A stretch of 64,000 nt of DNA, taken from assembly GCF_006538745.1 (NCBI RefSeq), contig NZ_BJLR01000001.1, positions 1-64,000 on the forward strand, in the 5' to 3' direction. This document shows positions 55,861 through 60,855 of the stretch, in pieces. Source of the DNA: Cellulomonas cellasea. GTDB lineage: Bacteria; Actinomycetota; Actinomycetes; Actinomycetales; Cellulomonadaceae. The translations under genes and the position numbers were made by a program. Numbering within the stretch: position 1 is the stretch's first letter; each line of letters begins with the position of its first letter. The notes below the pieces were generated by a model. That model was not told the DNA's origin and ran no database searches. It saw nothing but the letters and a program-made list of their open reading frames with translations.

Positions 55861-57474
55861 TCACGTGAGCGGCGGCAGCACCTGGTCACGCGCGAGCACC
55901 GCCCGGAACGGGTCGCCGCGCTCCGCGACCCGGTCGAGCACCGTGCGCAGCGTGAACGCGTCGGGCCGCAGCCAGTCCTCGTCGAGCTCGTCCCACGTGA
56001 TCGGCGCGGACACCGGCGCCCCGGCCGCCGCGCGCGGGCTGTACGGCGCCACGAGCGTCTTGTTGATCGCGTTCTGCGTGTAGTCGAGCCGCGCGAGCCC
56101 GCCGCGCTCGTGCACGCCCCAGCGCCAGCTCACGAGCTCGGGGACGACGGCGCCGACCGTGCGCGAGACCCGCTCGACCCACGCGCGCGTGTCGTCGAAC
56201 GCCGGGCCGGGCGCGATCGGGATCCAGATCTGGATGCCGCGCCGGCCCGTGAGCTTGGGCTGGGCCTGCACGCCGAGGTGCTCGAACGCGTCGCGGTGCA
56301 GCCGCGCGAGCAGCACGACGTCCTCCCACGCCGTGGACGTCCCGGGGTCGAGGTCGACGAGCGCGTAGCTCGGACGCTGCGGCTCGGCCGTCGGCGACGT
56401 CCACGCGTGCCACTCGAGGGCCCCGAAGTTCGCGGCCCACACGAGCGCGGCGGGCTCGTCGACCACGAGGTACGTGCGCGTGTCGCCCGGCTCGACGTCG
56501 GGCCGGTCCCAGCGCGGCAGCCAGTCGGGCGCGTGCCCGGGGAGCTCCTTGTGCCAGAACCCCGAGCCGCCCGCGCCCTGCGGGAACCGGTGCATGTTGA
56601 GCGCGCGCCCCTGCAGGTACGGCAGGGCGACGGGGGCGATGCGCGCCGCGTACCGGACGAGCTCGCGCTTGGTCACGGGCTCCTCGCCGGGCCGGGCCGG
56701 GAACAGCACCTTGTCGAGGTTCGTCACCTTGAGCCTGCGGCCGTGCACCTCCCACGTCCCGCCGGAGCCGAGGTCGTCGAGCGCGGCGAGCTCGTCGTCG
56801 GTCGGGGCGGCGACCTCCGGGTGCAGCGCGACCGACGCCTGCGCCGCCGGGAGGTCCGAGCGCCACAGCCGGTGGGGGTCGGCGAGCACCTCGTCGTTCG
56901 TCCGGCCGCTCAGCACCGAGTGCGGGTGGTCCTCGGCGTCCCAGCCCTCGACCGCGTGGTCGTCGCGCTTGTGCAGCATCAGCCACTGCTCCTTGCCGTG
57001 CGCGTCGGGCCCGCCGCTGCGCACGAGCACGAACCGCCCGTGCAGCTTCGTCCCGTGCACCTCGACGTGCAGCTCGCCGTGCGCGACCTCGGCGCCGGGG
57101 TCGTCGCTCTTGTACGGCACCCACGTGCCCCGGTCCCACACGATGACGTCGCCGCCGCCGTACTCCCCGGACGGGATGACGCCCTCGAAGTCCGCGTACT
57201 CGAGCGGGTGGTCCTCGACGTGCACCGCCATGCGCCGGACCTTCGGGTCGAGCGTCGGCCCCCGCGGGACCGCCCAGCTCACGAGCACGCCGTCGATCTC
57301 GAAGCGCACGTCGTAGTGCAGGCGGCGGGCCCGGTGGCGCTGCACGACGAAGCGCCGCAGCCCGTCGGCGGGGTCGGGCGCCGGTGTGCCGGACGGCTCG
57401 GGGGTCCGGGCGAAGTCTCGCATCGCCCGGTACGTCTCGAGCTCGCCGGTCTGCCGCTCCCGCGCTGCCACCAC
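55861..57474 (-). CDS. LigD-like protein: 3'-phosphoesterase plus polymerase, no ligase domain
   Basis: A 537-residue repair protein for non-homologous end joining. Residues about 18-195 are the 3'-phosphoesterase domain (FVVQRHRARRLHYDVRFEIDG, SWAVPRGPTLDPKVRRMAVHVEDHPLEYADFEGVIPSGEYGGGDVIVWD). Residues about 245-530 are the AEP/primase-type polymerase (VTNLDKVLFPARP, ALVDLDPG metal Asps, LTGRRGIQIWIP, RLDYTQNAINKT). The ATP-dependent ligase domain of classical LigD is missing and should be encoded elsewhere, as should Ku. GTG 57474 was taken as start; ATG 57423 (MRDFARTPEP) would also begin at the conserved region. Confidence 0.88.
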   Translation of the reverse strand: MVAARERQTGELETYRAMRDFARTPEPSGTPAPDPADGLRRFVVQRHRARRLHYDVRFEIDGVLVSWAVPRGPTLDPKVRRMAVHVEDHPLEYADFEGVIPSGEYGGGDVIVWDRGTWVPYKSDDPGAEVAHGELHVEVHGTKLHGRFVLVRSGGPDAHGKEQWLMLHKRDDHAVEGWDAEDHPHSVLSGRTNDEVLADPHRLWRSDLPAAQASVALHPEVAAPTDDELAALDDLGSGGTWEVHGRRLKVTNLDKVLFPARPGEEPVTKRELVRYAARIAPVALPYLQGRALNMHRFPQGAGGSGFWHKELPGHAPDWLPRWDRPDVEPGDTRTYLVVDEPAALVWAANFGALEWHAWTSPTAEPQRPSYALVDLDPGTSTAWEDVVLLARLHRDAFEHLGVQAQPKLTGRRGIQIWIPIAPGPAFDDTRAWVERVSRTVGAVVPELVSWRWGVHERGGLARLDYTQNAINKTLVAPYSPRAAAGAPVSAPITWDELDEDWLRPDAFTLRTVLDRVAERGDPFRAVLARDQVLPPLT

Positions 57475-57626: not shown

Positions 57627-57748
57627 CGCGACCGTCGCCTGCGGGACGCCACTCCCCCGCGACCGTCGCCTGCGGGAGGTCACTCCCCCGCGACCGTCGG
57701 TGCCGGACGTCACTCGCGCGCGACCGTCGGGTGCCCGACGGTCACTCC
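57627..57748. repeat. Four 28-31-bp tandem repeats between Nudix and LigD genes
   Basis: Copies at 57627-57657, 57658-57688, 57689-57716 and 57719-57748, each beginning CGCGACCGTCG and containing CACTC near the end; the first two differ at only two or three positions. The last copy includes the stop codon of the Nudix gene. The remainder of the 267-base gap (57475-57626) shows no gene. Confidence 0.85.
57723..57742. terminator. 9-bp stem-loop at the end of the Nudix gene
   Basis: ACCGTCGGG (57723-57731) pairs perfectly with CCCGACGGT (57734-57742) over a 2-base centre, immediately after the Nudix stop on the minus strand. It is formed by the last, variant copy of the tandem repeat. Confidence 0.55.
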
Positions 57749-58443
57749 CGCGCGAGCGGCGGGTGCAGCGCGGTCGCGTCGCCCCGCCGGTACACCGTCG
57801 CGGGCCGCCCCCGCCCCTCGGTGCGGGTCCGCCCGGTGTCGACGAGGAACCCCGGCGCGCCCGTGACCTTGCGGTGGAAGTTGCGCGGGTCGAGGCGCTG
57901 GCCCCACACGCTCTCGTAGACCAGACGGAGCTGGGCGACGGTGAACTCGGGCGGGCAGAACGCGGTCGCGAGCGGGCTGTACTCGAGCTTCGCCCGCGCC
58001 CGCTCGAGCCCGTCGGCCAGCACGCGCGCGTGGTCGAAGGCGAGCGGGGCGCCGAGCGCGTCGTCGACCGGGACCCAGTCCGCGGCGTCCGCGTCGGTCC
58101 CCGCGCGGGGCTCCGGCAGGTCGGGCGCGAGCGCGAGGTACGCGACGGACACGACGCGCATGCGCGGGTCGCGGCCCGGTTCCCCGTACGAGCCGAGCTG
58201 CTCGAGGTGACCGGGGACGTCCCGCAGCCCGGTCTCCTCGGCGAGCTCGCGCTCCGCGGCGGCGTCGAGCCCCTCGTCCGGGCGCACGAACCCGCCCGGC
58301 AGGGCCCGCTGCCCGCGGAACGGCTCCTCGCCGCGCTCGACGAGCAGCACCTGCAAGGTCCCGGTCCGCAGCGTGAGCACGACGAGGTCCACGGTCACCG
58401 CGAACCGGGGGTAGGCGGACGGCGTGTAGTCGCGGGGTCCCAT
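57742..58443 (-). CDS. Nudix hydrolase with C-terminal winged helix, NrtR-like regulator
   Basis: A 233-residue protein. The N-terminal Nudix domain has an intact Nudix box (GFVRPDEGLDAAAERELAEETGL, G-x5-E-x7-RE-x2-EE-xG), so it may both bind and hydrolyse ADP-ribose-like compounds. The C-terminal 80 residues (FTVAQLRLVYESVWGQRLDPRNFHRKVTGAPGFLVDTG) form the winged helix of NrtR-type regulators of NAD metabolism. ATG 58443 is preferred over GTG 58452; a TATAGA -10 just upstream suggests a nearly leaderless message. Two matching palindromes lie between it and the SPFH gene, implying auto- and cross-regulation. Confidence 0.87.
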   Translation of the reverse strand: MGPRDYTPSAYPRFAVTVDLVVLTLRTGTLQVLLVERGEEPFRGQRALPGGFVRPDEGLDAAAERELAEETGLRDVPGHLEQLGSYGEPGRDPRMRVVSVAYLALAPDLPEPRAGTDADAADWVPVDDALGAPLAFDHARVLADGLERARAKLEYSPLATAFCPPEFTVAQLRLVYESVWGQRLDPRNFHRKVTGAPGFLVDTGRTRTEGRGRPATVYRRGDATALHPPLARE

Positions 58444-58457
58444 GCCGGCCACTCTAT

Positions 58458-58474
58458 ATCGTCAACTTGACGAT
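58458..58474. promoter_or_regulatory. Operator 1 (NrtR-like palindrome)
   Basis: ATCGTCAACTTGACGAT is a perfect 17-bp palindrome. It covers the candidate -35 (TTGACG, 58467-58472) of the SPFH gene and adjoins the -10 of the Nudix gene. It shares TCGTC-N5-GACGA with operator 2. Confidence 0.8.
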
Positions 58475-58492
58475 TAAGCACGCGCCGCTTTA

Positions 58493-58507
58493 TCGTCATG
58501 GCGACGA
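58493..58507. promoter_or_regulatory. Operator 2 (NrtR-like palindrome)
   Basis: TCGTC-ATGGC-GACGA, centred 34 bases (about three helical turns) from operator 1. It overlaps the candidate -10 (TATCGT, 58491-58496) of the SPFH gene; binding at both sites would occlude that promoter. Confidence 0.7.
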
Positions 58508-58526
58508 CAAAACGAAGGAGGCCCCC

Positions 58527-59531
58527 GTGGCCACGATCACCCGCTACCCGTTCGTCCGGCACCTCCGGACGGCCCCCACCTCGCACGTCGTGCAGCTGCG
58601 CGACGGCACCGTCCGGCGCTCCGGCACCGGGCTCTCGTTCTGGTTCCGCCCGCTGACAGCGGTCCTGTCGGAGGTCCCCGTCGACGACCGCGAGCTGCCC
58701 CTCGTGGCCCGCGCCCGCACCGCCGACCTCCAGGAGGTCACCGCTCAGGTCACCGTGAGCTACCGCTTCGAGGACCCCGAGCTCGTCGCCCGGCGGCTCG
58801 ACTTCGGCATCGACCCCGGCACCGGCACGTGGACGGCGAGCCCGCTCGACCAGGTCGCGCACCTGCTCGGGGAGCTCGCGTCGGGCCACGTCATGGACGC
58901 CCTCGCGGGCAGCACGCTGCGTGAGGCGATCTCCTCGGGGACCGGGCCGCTGCGCGCGCGGGTCACCGCGGCCCTGCTGGCCGACGACCGGGTCGCCGCG
59001 ACCGGGCTGCGCGTGCTCGGCGCGCGCATCGGCTCGGTCCGGGCGGACGCCGACCTCGAGCGTGCGCTGCAGACGCCGGCTCGCGAGCAGGCGCAGTCGG
59101 AGGCCGAGCGGTCGACGTTCGAGCGGCGCGCGCTGGCCGTCGAGCGCGATCGCGCGATCGCCGAGAACGAGATGACCAACCGCATCGAGCTCGCGGGCCG
59201 CGAGCAGCAGCTCGTCGCGCAGGAGGGCACCAACGCCCGCGCCCGGGCGGACGAGGCCGCCGCCGCCGCACTCATCGAGGCCCGGGCGCACGCGGACCGC
59301 CAGCGCGTGCTCGCCGCCGCCGCGGCCGAGGCGGCACGGCTGCAGGGCGAGGCCGAGGGCGCCGCCGAGAGCGCCCGCATGGCCGCCTACGCCGACGTGC
59401 CGTACGAGGTGCTGCTCGCCGTGGCGCTGCGCGAGCTCGCCGGGAACCTGCCCGCGATCGGTCAGCTCACGCTCACCCCGGACGCGCTGACCGGCGCCCT
59501 CACCGCGCTGACCGCCGGGCGGGGTGAGTGA
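58527..59531 (+). CDS. SPFH/band-7 (prohibitin-like) protein
   Basis: A 334-residue SPFH-domain protein. The SPFH fold covers about residues 15-170 (HVVQLRDGTVRRSGTGLSFWFRPLTAVLSEVPVDDRELPL, LQEVTAQVTVSYRFEDPELVARRLDFGID). It is followed by a long Ala/Glu/Arg coiled coil (about 175-290; LERALQTPAREQAQSEAERS onward) and an AYADVPYEVLLAVALRELAGNLPAIGQLTL end typical of bacterial band-7 proteins. No clear transmembrane helix precedes the domain, so it may be peripheral or cytosolic. GTG 58527 follows AGGAGG at six bases. It overlaps the NAD-kinase-like gene, forming an operon under two NrtR-like operators. Confidence 0.88.
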   Translation: MATITRYPFVRHLRTAPTSHVVQLRDGTVRRSGTGLSFWFRPLTAVLSEVPVDDRELPLVARARTADLQEVTAQVTVSYRFEDPELVARRLDFGIDPGTGTWTASPLDQVAHLLGELASGHVMDALAGSTLREAISSGTGPLRARVTAALLADDRVAATGLRVLGARIGSVRADADLERALQTPAREQAQSEAERSTFERRALAVERDRAIAENEMTNRIELAGREQQLVAQEGTNARARADEAAAAALIEARAHADRQRVLAAAAAEAARLQGEAEGAAESARMAAYADVPYEVLLAVALRELAGNLPAIGQLTLTPDALTGALTALTAGRGE

Positions 59532-60426
59532 CGTGACGCTCGCCCCGCGCGTGGTCGTCGTGCACCGCCGCAGCGCGCTCGACGAGCTGGTGGACCGCCA
59601 CGGCACCCGCGGCCAGGCCGAGTTCTTCCTGCGGACGCGCGGCCGCGACCTCGCCGAGGTGCAGGCGAGCCACGACGCCCTCGCCGACGCGCTCGCGCGG
59701 ACCCGGGCCGCGGTCCCGGCGCACTGGCGCCGCGGGGACGTCGACCGGGACGACCTGCACCGCTTCGCGTTCGAGCCGCAGGACGTGTGCCTCGTCGTCG
59801 GGAGCGACGGGCTCGTCGCCAACACCGCGAAGTACGTCGGCTCCCAGCCGGTCGTGGGCGTCGACCCCGAGCCCGGGCGCAACCCGGGCGTGCTCGTGCG
59901 CCACCGCCCGGCGGCCGTCGCGCAGGTCCTCGACGCGGTCGTGCGCGGCGCCGCCCGCGTCGAGCCCCGGGCGCTCGTGCGCGCGTCGCTCGACGACGGC
60001 ACGTCCCTCGAGGCGCTCAACGACGTCTACGTGGGGCACGCGGGCCACCAGTCGGCCCGGTACGCGCTGCACGTCCCGGGCGGTGCGAGCGAGGCGCAGT
60101 ACTCCTCGGGCGTCGTCGTCACGACGGGGACGGGCGCCACCGGGTGGGCCGTGTCGCTCGCCCGAGGACGGGCCGACGCTCCCCCGCTTCCCGGTGCGGC
60201 GGACGCCGCGCTCGCCTGGTTCGTGCGCGAGGCGTGGCCCTCGCCGAGCACCGGGACGACGCTCACGGCGGGGACGCTGGCCGCGGGCACCGAGCTCGGG
60301 CTCGTCGTGGGCTCGGACTCGCTGGTCGTCTTCGGCGACGGGCTCGAGGCGGACCGGCTGACCGCGACGTGGGGCCAGACCGTCCGCCTGGGGCTCGCGG
60401 AGCGCCGGCTCCGGCTCGTGGTCTGA
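59524..60426 (+). CDS. NAD-kinase-like protein
   Basis: A 300-residue protein with an NAD kinase-type fold. The phosphate-donor loop GGDGT of NAD kinases appears as VVGSDGLVANTAKYVGSQPVVGVDPEPGRNPGVL, keeping the catalytic Asp. ALNDVYVGHAGHQSARY and SSGVVVTTGTGATGWAVSLARG correspond to the NAD-binding NE/D and GDGxxxSTPTGSTAY segments. The GGDG-to-GSDG change and altered second motif suggest a changed substrate or a non-catalytic NAD(P)-binding role. GTG 59524 overlaps the SPFH stop by eight bases (GTG 59533 alternative). An N-terminal 85-residue extension is not from classical NadK. Confidence 0.75.
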   Translation: MSDVTLAPRVVVVHRRSALDELVDRHGTRGQAEFFLRTRGRDLAEVQASHDALADALARTRAAVPAHWRRGDVDRDDLHRFAFEPQDVCLVVGSDGLVANTAKYVGSQPVVGVDPEPGRNPGVLVRHRPAAVAQVLDAVVRGAARVEPRALVRASLDDGTSLEALNDVYVGHAGHQSARYALHVPGGASEAQYSSGVVVTTGTGATGWAVSLARGRADAPPLPGAADAALAWFVREAWPSPSTGTTLTAGTLAAGTELGLVVGSDSLVVFGDGLEADRLTATWGQTVRLGLAERRLRLVV

Positions 60427-60453: not shown

Positions 60454-60855
60454 TCAGCCGATCGCCGCGAGCAGGTCGCCGCACGCCGCCTCGCACGCCC
60501 GGCACGCCTCGGCGCAGATCCGGCAGTGCTCGTGCATCCCGGCGTGCTGCTCGCACTCGTCGCCGCACGCGACGCACGCCGCGATGCACGCGGTGAGCAG
60601 CGCGCGCGTCACGTTCGCGTCGTAGCCCGTGTGCCGGGACAGCACCCGGCCCGTCGTCTCGCACACGTCCGCGCAGTCCAGGTCGCCGCGGATGCACGTG
60701 CGCAGGTCCGCGACCATCTCCTCGCTGAGGCACGCGTCCGCGCACGCGGTGCACGCCTGCGCGCACTCGATCGCGACGTCGACGACGCGGGCCAGGAGCC
60801 CCCGGTCCAGGGTGATCGAGGCGGGGTAGCTCCTCATCATCGCGGTGGTCTGCAT
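60454..60855 (-). CDS. Four-helix-bundle copper-storage-type protein (DUF326/Csp-like)
   Basis: A 133-residue protein packed with cysteines spaced along four helices: ECAQACTACADACL, TCIRGDLDCADVCE, CIAACVACGDECEQHAGMHEHC and CAEACRACEAACG. This layout is that of Csp proteins, which hold many Cu(I) ions inside the bundle, and of DUF326 ferredoxin-like proteins. No signal peptide, so the cytosolic type is likely. It starts at ATG 60855 after GGAGGGCGAC. The 197-base gap upstream contains a possible -10 (TAGCGT) and no gene; no copper pump or CsoR is adjacent. Confidence 0.85.
   Translation of the reverse strand: MQTTAMMRSYPASITLDRGLLARVVDVAIECAQACTACADACLSEEMVADLRTCIRGDLDCADVCETTGRVLSRHTGYDANVTRALLTACIAACVACGDECEQHAGMHEHCRICAEACRACEAACGDLLAAIG

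Follow-up and report, generated by a model that had tools for sequence, protein, structure and literature searches.

Why should a Nudix-type transcriptional regulator be encoded back to back with an SPFH protein and a protein that resembles a kinase of nicotinamide adenine dinucleotide (NAD)? The question is raised by a three-gene cassette at positions 57742-60426 of a 64,000-nt stretch of Cellulomonas cellasea DNA (contig NZ_BJLR01000001.1; hereafter the window), which a preliminary description had taken for a membrane-scaffold or stress unit that senses or changes NAD(P) or a related dinucleotide. Here, we found that the three genes form a conserved unit, that the kinase-like protein folds like an NAD kinase, with human mitochondrial NADK2 as its nearest match in both profile and structure comparisons, and that a conserved pair of operator-like palindromes lies between the divergent genes. 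The parts belong to known families, and as far as could be searched the unit itself is undescribed: an incomplete literature search, with few subscription papers, returned no paper with both 'NAD kinase' and 'SPFH', so that an earlier mention is possible.

Is this gene order a common arrangement? Strong matches to the kinase-like protein occur in 10 of 59 relatives (an eleventh, in G057 at 2e-6, overlaps that genome's canonical NADK), these 10 genomes, but none of the remaining 49 at E 0.001, also have an SPFH homologue, and in all 10 a Nudix gene with a helix-turn-helix domain (Nudix-HTH) adjoins the SPFH gene. A one-genome-per-species scan yielded at least 249 relatives. We kept the 80 best, which are 53-80% identical and, going by their record titles, all actinobacterial; as top matches to the query they are not a random sample. 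Adding 12 loci from the 59-relative search gave 92, and three were dropped: L011 had no such open reading frame (ORF), L012 was a second piece of the L010 place and L031 had a split SPFH frame. In every one of the 89 scored loci, the window copy included, the kinase-like gene is immediately preceded on its own strand by an SPFH homologue, at a gap of -22 to +79 nt, and 72 of them carry a divergent Nudix-HTH homologue within 1.5 kb. The two genes are even joined in a single 648-aa frame in a Micropruina metagenome-assembled genome (MAG). An even draw of 296 phylum genomes gave 75 profile matches, 12 of them strong or syntenic (our own included); SPFH was adjacent in 12/12 and a Nudix homologue lay within the short flanks in four, one of them co-directional (L104). 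This draw and the set of 59 relatives are less biased than the 80 best matches, and both agree with them on the pairing of the genes. No fourth conserved gene was found, the commonest flanking ORF cluster being present in just 10 loci. Distances between the proteins of 63 loci are correlated (Mantel r 0.58 for Nudix/kinase-like, 0.89 for Nudix/SPFH and 0.61 for kinase-like/SPFH; 0/999 permutations as high), as is expected of co-inheritance, and shared species history also yields such a correlation. Comparison with the nearest relative, G003, shows purifying selection on the kinase-like gene (dN 0.031, dS 0.211) and on the SPFH gene (dN 0.012, dS 0.185). Two irregular loci were also seen. The distant relative at L104 (G313) has all three ORFs on one strand and its kinase-like gene split over two frames, and Pseudarthrobacter albicanus carries a second, partial kinase-like copy (L031:9277-9720) about 2.4 kb downstream of the first.

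The gene pair extends beyond the actinobacteria. At all 12 plasmid-collection loci examined an SPFH homologue adjoins the kinase-like gene, and a divergent Nudix-HTH gene completes the cassette in seven, from Providencia, two Rhizobium species, Methylomonas, Cupriavidus, Proteus and Acinetobacter. In Treponema a Nudix-HTH homologue lies about 4 kb off on the same strand; none was found at the Roseomonas, Kitasatospora, Streptomyces and uncultured-plasmid (L147) loci, and a divergent 226-aa ORF upstream of the Roseomonas SPFH gene, a Nudix candidate by position, had no Pfam match. The SPFH reading is split into two ORFs in Acinetobacter and partial in L147, where it remains beside a transposase gene. 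Identity to the window is 33-38% for the kinase-like proteins of Providencia, Rhizobium, Treponema and Cupriavidus and 49% for Roseomonas, and for SPFH it is 25% in Providencia, 30% in Rhizobium, 23% in Treponema, 30% in Methylomonas and 42% in Roseomonas. Chance association of the genes is ruled out by their co-occurrence across relatives, phylum sample and plasmid loci, which is what the preliminary description had proposed to look for.

Some of these plasmid loci are of interest in their own right. In Acinetobacter, Proteus and the uncultured plasmid (L144, L146, L147) a tetracycline-resistance gene, tet(H) or tet(J), is found close to the kinase-like gene, and small plasmids from Pasteurella, Actinobacillus, Psychrobacter and others retain C-terminal remnants of the latter; gene and remnants may be traces of the surroundings in which that resistance gene originally lay. 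A role in anti-phage defence is not favoured: the one PADLOC match was weak (PDC-S07 at 0.003, on the Nudix domain), and the Providencia kinase-like protein as query found no phage record. The Providencia gene had no match in E. coli by distant blastn.

What, then, is the kinase-like protein? By sequence search it is barely recognizable: the window protein had no Pfam match at E<1, matched the NCBIfam NAD kinase model weakly (8e-10, below its cut-off) and matched PDB NADK chains at 1e-6, and of four other family members two had sub-threshold matches to Pfam NAD kinase and two had none (E up to 0.1). In the annotated records seen, its homologues are mostly called 'hypothetical protein' or 'sugar kinase'; two R. 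etli records give 'ATP-NAD kinase PpnK-type protein'. The structure prediction suggested in the preliminary description was more telling. The AlphaFold2 model is confident (predicted local distance difference test, pLDDT, 93; predicted TM score, pTM, 0.88) and has the NAD kinase fold, with a Foldseek E-value of 2e-19 and VIA-align Z scores of 20.5-25.4 to NADKs among the 50 matches listed. NADK2 fills the top five rows of VIA-align (Z 24.4-25.4; at best 277 residues at a root-mean-square deviation, rmsd, of 3.1), and the best bacterial NADK follows in the next row at 23.2. Foldseek gave its lowest E-value to the Pseudomonas aeruginosa NADK, not to NADK2, and its highest query TM, among the 50 matches listed, to NADK2 (0.73). 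An actinobacterial profile of the family ranks NADK2 (6e-17) before other NADKs (3e-8), and a cross-phylum profile with divergent rows added separates them further (9e-21 versus 2e-7 for the next NADK). As single queries, the Rhizobium protein finds NADK2 first (2e-6) and the window protein matches P. aeruginosa NADK and NADK2 about equally. The family and NADK2 have segments in common, namely a GVNTDPERSEGHL-like stretch, SSGL...TGTGS..W and REP/REA.

The catalytic motifs need a closer look, since the preliminary description had read two of them as altered, GSDG in place of GGDG and TTGTGATGW in place of STPTGSTAY. The first reading stands for the loop as such: in 90/90 homologue rows the second glycine of GGDG is replaced and the following threonine has become leucine. 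GSDG itself is the window's own variant, the family having mostly GQDGL (77 rows, against 12 with GPDGL and one, the window, with GSDGL); the G003 protein, 94% identical to the window's, has GPDGL. In a control of 19 other NADK loci, made up of 18 of the weak phylum-sample matches and L141, GGDG was read in 17, GRDG in one and neither in one (pattern not found). The second reading did not hold. Tryptophan replaces the tyrosine of TPTGSTAY (conserved region II) in 90/90 rows, as it does in NADK2, and because the protein is closest to human NADK2 we regard TTGTGATGW as NADK2-like, not degenerate. The NE/D motif is likewise kept throughout (N and E in 78 rows, N and D in 12), and neither alignment (49 rows from actinobacteria, 11 across phyla) shows any variation at Asp95, Asn166, Trp208 or Ser211. 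By eye, Asp95, Asn166, Glu/Asp167, Thr206 and Trp208 correspond to residues that the available part of the literature describes as vital in Ppnk of the tuberculosis bacterium. Asp95, Asn166 and Trp208 do not vary in the actinobacterial alignment; the residues of the NAD side are thus kept, and the presumed phosphate-donor loop is changed. According to the accessible part of PMC8553519, GGDG is a motif of all NAD kinases. The family lacks it and therefore should not be filed as NAD kinase. A canonical NADK was found in 10/10 cassette-bearing relatives, and thus the kinase-like protein is an accessory one there.

The SPFH protein has a Pfam SPFH domain (PF01145, 2e-13, 51.3 bits), as the preliminary description had noticed. 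Its structure model (pLDDT 86, pTM 0.52) consists of the SPFH domain at about residues 3-173, a helix at 175-290 (about 115 residues) and C-terminal helices of lower confidence. The best structural matches are prohibitin, HflK/C, erlin and flotillin (Z 13.5-14.9), several of them at large rmsd because the helix swings; the SPFH domain of stomatin alone aligns at Z 13.1 and rmsd 2.2 over 108 residues, and major vault protein scores lower (Z 10-12, large rmsd). By sequence, HflK matches at 0.001. Nowhere does the hydrophobicity of the window protein reach that of a membrane span (maximal KD19 1.14; N-terminal 0.84). We thus think it more likely that the protein forms a ring or cage that is soluble or peripherally bound, and consider the membrane scaffold proposed earlier doubtful.

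The regulator was identified as NrtR-like in the preliminary description, and our results agree. Nudix and NrtR winged-helix domains lie above their cut-offs (PF00293, 1e-21, 77.7 bits; PF21906, 6e-15, 55.6 bits), the Nudix box is complete, and a slightly relaxed pattern of it is intact in 74 of the 75 homologues whose match covers it. The top PDB match is AraR (5bs6), accompanied by 3gz5, which we take to be SoNrtR. NCBIfam NF050029 scored 136 bits against a cut-off of 400 bits; this model is narrow, because the NAD-operon paralogue introduced below also scores only 131 bits.

Two palindromes TCGTCA-N3-TGACGA lie between repressor and SPFH gene, at 58459 and 58493. Of 88 loci (L068, at a contig end, was left out), 71 carry two or more such palindromes upstream of SPFH (allowing 2 mismatches), nine carry one and eight none, compared with two or more in 3/1520 random windows of the same loci and 0/1760 shuffles. 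The palindromes lie 33-34 bp apart in 48 of the 71 loci and 44-45 bp apart in 20, two spacings that differ by roughly one turn of the DNA helix. In the whole genome, among the places listed, site 58459 is the sole match without mismatch and 58459/58493 the sole close pair; the 64-kb window holds 11 sites at up to 2 mismatches where 4.1 are expected. A genome-wide regulon was considered and set aside: there are 51 sites at one mismatch or fewer and 3 for the backwards-pattern control, and we draw no regulon from them because the control pattern differs in dinucleotides. The promoter-like TTGACG-N18-TATCGT is the region's only such match (mean 0.0 in 50 shuffles); it begins in the right arm of site 1 and reaches into site 2. 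TTGAC-N17/18-[TC]TATCG was found in 37 of the 88 loci, and TTGAC with a 16-nt spacer and TTATCG in 14 more. A promoter-like element that spans both sites suggests direct repression. The intergenic palindromes of the proteobacterial loci have a different sequence. Two Actinomadura loci with no adjacent Nudix gene (L060, L063) have one site of the usual type together with TTCTCATCTTGAGAA, which suggests a different or unlinked regulator there.

A link to NAD is suggested by a paralogue of the regulator in the same genome. This NrtR-type protein, 55% identical to the cassette regulator, is encoded inside a pncB-nicotinamidase-NrtR-nadE operon, in which NCBIfam models place the nicotinate phosphoribosyltransferase and the NAD synthase over, and the nicotinamidase-like protein below, their cut-offs. 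The operon is preceded by ATGGTCACTTCGACCAT and TGGTCACCATGACCA; cassette and NAD-operon sites thus have a common core GTCA-N3-TGAC and differ by one flanking base pair per half-site. Of 10 further homologous regulators from relatives, three lie in pncB/nadE-type operons (G003, G025 and G030), G003 having a near-identical and G025 a related site pair. In the Nudix tree, from which the poor row nad_G030 (23% filled) was left out, the NAD-operon regulators form their own supported clade (100/99). The cassette regulator and its NAD-operon paralogue also lend themselves to a study of how the operators of related Nudix regulators diverge.

How could the three proteins work together? We favour the reading, and give it an even chance, that the cassette is a self-regulated unit in which an NAD-derived signal frees an SPFH scaffold and an accessory NADK2-like enzyme or binder from an NrtR-type repressor. 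The repressor would bind the two palindromes and, as these overlap the promoter-like element and adjoin its own gene upstream, would control both the operon and itself. The ligand that lifts repression would derive from NAD and signal its breakdown; ADP-ribose or another nucleoside diphosphate derivative of this kind is the likeliest, and the intact Nudix box suggests that the repressor could also hydrolyse the ligand. The induced SPFH protein, of predicted fold and without a transmembrane segment, may assemble into a ring or cage. The NADK2-like protein, which keeps the catalytic aspartate, the NE/D and the W motif and has lost the second glycine of GGDG, would most likely bind NAD(H) or a related adenine dinucleotide and act at the 2'-OH of this ligand, with a different donor or an altered geometry of the donor site; that the unit senses or changes NAD(P), as the preliminary description had it, is plausible. 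That it works with the SPFH scaffold is suggested by the unbroken adjacency in the 89 loci and by the fused frame.

Several observations weigh against this proposal. Of the 89 loci, 17 had no adjacent Nudix gene by script, or 13 after a hand check (in L007 it lies about 860 nt from SPFH, L050 and L069 were ORF bookkeeping misses and L068 begins at a contig end; among the 13, L087 has one about 3 kb away), none was seen within the short flanks of 8 of the 12 phylum-sample loci, seven of which belong to one family (f21), and 5 of the 12 plasmid loci lack a divergent one. In the tree the proteobacterial cassette regulators do not group with the actinobacterial ones; the reason is either an effect of long branches or that regulators of the NrtR family were recruited separately to one and the same gene pair. 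The search used found no GTCA-N3-TGAC site at one of the four NAD operons (G030) and no NAD-gene neighbour for seven of the 10 further regulators, so that this regulator branch need not be tied to NAD; in the PDB search the cassette regulator matches both sugar-sensing AraR and NrtR. None of five kinase-like proteins passed the Pfam NAD_kinase cut-off, activity may be lost or different given that GGDG is not kept, and the fusion is one frame in one MAG.

The altered loop is open to other explanations. In the next most likely one, which we still think improbable, the protein is a catalytically dead sensor that binds NAD(P)(H) or ADP-ribose and signals its occupancy to the SPFH assembly with no phosphoryl transfer. 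The double replacement in the loop throughout the rows and the canonical NADK of all 10 cassette relatives speak for it; the four invariant residues and the retained NE/D acid speak against it, as a dead enzyme is expected to lose its catalytic aspartate in some lineages. Less probable again, the protein may be one more NAD(H) kinase of the ordinary type, which boosts NADPH during stress, tolerates the GxDG change and is only placed near the membrane by SPFH. NADK2-type motifs and fold would fit such an enzyme, as would the use of ATP or polyphosphate by NADK2 (from what is available of PMC8553519); an alteration of GGDG in all rows examined and an SPFH protein without a transmembrane segment would not. 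We consider it very improbable that the protein phosphorylates a non-NAD substrate (a sugar, nucleoside or lipid, cf. kinase families with related GGDG loops) and that the repressor senses that pathway, as AraR senses arabinose. The matches to both 5bs6 and 3gz5, the 'sugar kinase' records of several Rhizobium and Methylomonas homologues and the seven regulators away from NAD genes are in its favour, but the neighbourhoods share no sugar-pathway gene, the Nudix box is intact, and among solved proteins a profile search puts NADK2 and other NADKs nearest.

Returning to the NAD-responsive unit that we prefer, a more elaborate form of it can be imagined, which we regard as quite improbable: a closed adenine-dinucleotide circuit on a soluble SPFH cage, where an NADK2-like enzyme with a rebuilt donor loop (for polyphosphate, PPi or another donor) would make a 2'-phosphorylated dinucleotide or ADP-ribose derivative within or upon a vault-like bacterial SPFH shell, and the NrtR-type repressor would sense and hydrolyse the same class of ligand. 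In that case the kinase-like family would also become a bacterial candidate for kinship with the mitochondrial NADK clade of eukaryotes; PMC6675116, in its accessible part, found no consistent prokaryotic sister of that clade.

The coordinates of the cassette and of the related NAD operon are collected in the table. The kinase-like gene had been described as overlapping the SPFH gene. The start methionine of the homologues shown in the alignment falls at V4 of the listed ORF, so that GTG 59533, one base past the SPFH stop, is the likelier start and the two genes abut with no overlap. The SPFH gene itself likely starts at GTG 58527 after AAGGAGG, rather than at the ORF start 58467. A terminator-like site on the minus strand (58512-58528; one found, shuffle mean 0.1) overlaps the SPFH ribosome-binding stretch.

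Table. Positions of the cassette features in the window, and of the paralogous NAD operon at locus L142
Feature	Position	Strand	Basis or remark
NrtR-family Nudix regulator, 236 aa from GTG 58452	57742..58452	-	PF00293, PF21906; PDB matches; orthologues divergent from SPFH
Operator-like site 1, TCGTCAACTTGACGA	58459..58473		Right arm contains -35-like TTGACG; putative, from motif conservation
Promoter-like TTGACG-N18-TATCGT, for SPFH and kinase-like genes	58467..58496	+	Putative; overlaps both operator-like sites
Operator-like site 2, TCGTCATGGCGACGA	58493..58507		34 bp from site 1; putative, from motif conservation
Ribosome-binding-site-like AAGGAGG, precedes GTG 58527	58515..58521	+	Read from sequence
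SPFH/Band 7 protein, without transmembrane segment	58527..59531	+	PF01145; structure model
NADK2-like NAD-kinase-fold protein, 297 aa (300 aa if start is GTG 59524)	59533..60426	+	Profile, alignment, structure model
NAD salvage operon (pncB-like, nicotinamidase-like, NrtR-type, NAD synthase)	L142:4888-9840		Tandem TGGTCA-N3-TGACCA-like sites

Around the cassette, an array of about four 31-bp units (CGCGACCGTCGCCTGC...) at 57627-57755 reaches into the 3' end of the Nudix gene. The minus strand encodes a LigD-type protein with phosphoesterase and primase-polymerase parts at 55861-57474, Pfam matching no ligase domain in this ORF, and, adjoining the cassette at 60454-60855, a cysteine-rich DUF326 protein, which presumably resembles four-helix copper-storage proteins.

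What does the cassette add to the systems that are already known? Many unrelated bacteria have it, and with it perhaps a novel manner of dealing with the coenzyme NAD. A three-gene unit that crosses phyla, with a kinase-like member that stays below the Pfam cut-offs in five of five proteins and goes by 'hypothetical protein' or 'sugar kinase' in most annotated records seen, points to an unrecognised branch of NAD(P) handling. The unit would tie SPFH assemblies, whose bacterial roles are mostly obscure, to defined small-molecule chemistry, and it predicts a concrete operator, ligand class and partner pair. With AraR, the arabinose regulator of the NrtR family, the repressor has its domain layout in common; it differs in keeping the Nudix box and in neighbourhoods that share no sugar genes. 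NrtR resembles it in the combination of Nudix domain and winged helix, in the close NAD-operon paralogue with related tandem palindromes and, judging by motif conservation, in operator-like palindromes beside its own gene. NrtR normally lies by NAD synthesis genes, whereas the cassette regulator lies by SPFH and NADK2-like genes, the NAD operon having a paralogue of its own. Its TCGTCA-N3-TGACGA sites are unlike the GTTTTCGA-N7-TCGAAAAC of MsNrtR given in the available portion of PMC6800001. The SPFH protein has the SPFH domain, long helix and C-terminal helices of prohibitin, HflK/HflC, erlin, flotillin and major vault protein. Most SPFH subfamilies have an N-terminal membrane anchor; the cassette protein has none, like SPFH8 and SPFH9, which are described as soluble in the part of PMC2636767 available, a text in which NAD, nudix and kinase do not occur. 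The usual partner gene of such scaffolds is NfeD or FtsH, and here it is the NADK2-like gene. NADK2 (PDB 7r4l, 7r4j, 7n29), finally, shares the fold of the kinase-like protein and aligns with it in the GVN[TP][DE]PxR..G.L, SSG....TGTGS..W and REP/REA segments; it has GGDGT where the cassette family has GxDGL (x being Q, P or S). The cassette protein, known here from sequence and model, is shorter, bacterial and encoded behind an SPFH gene, and bacterial proteins with NADK2-type motifs make the origin of the mitochondrial enzyme testable.

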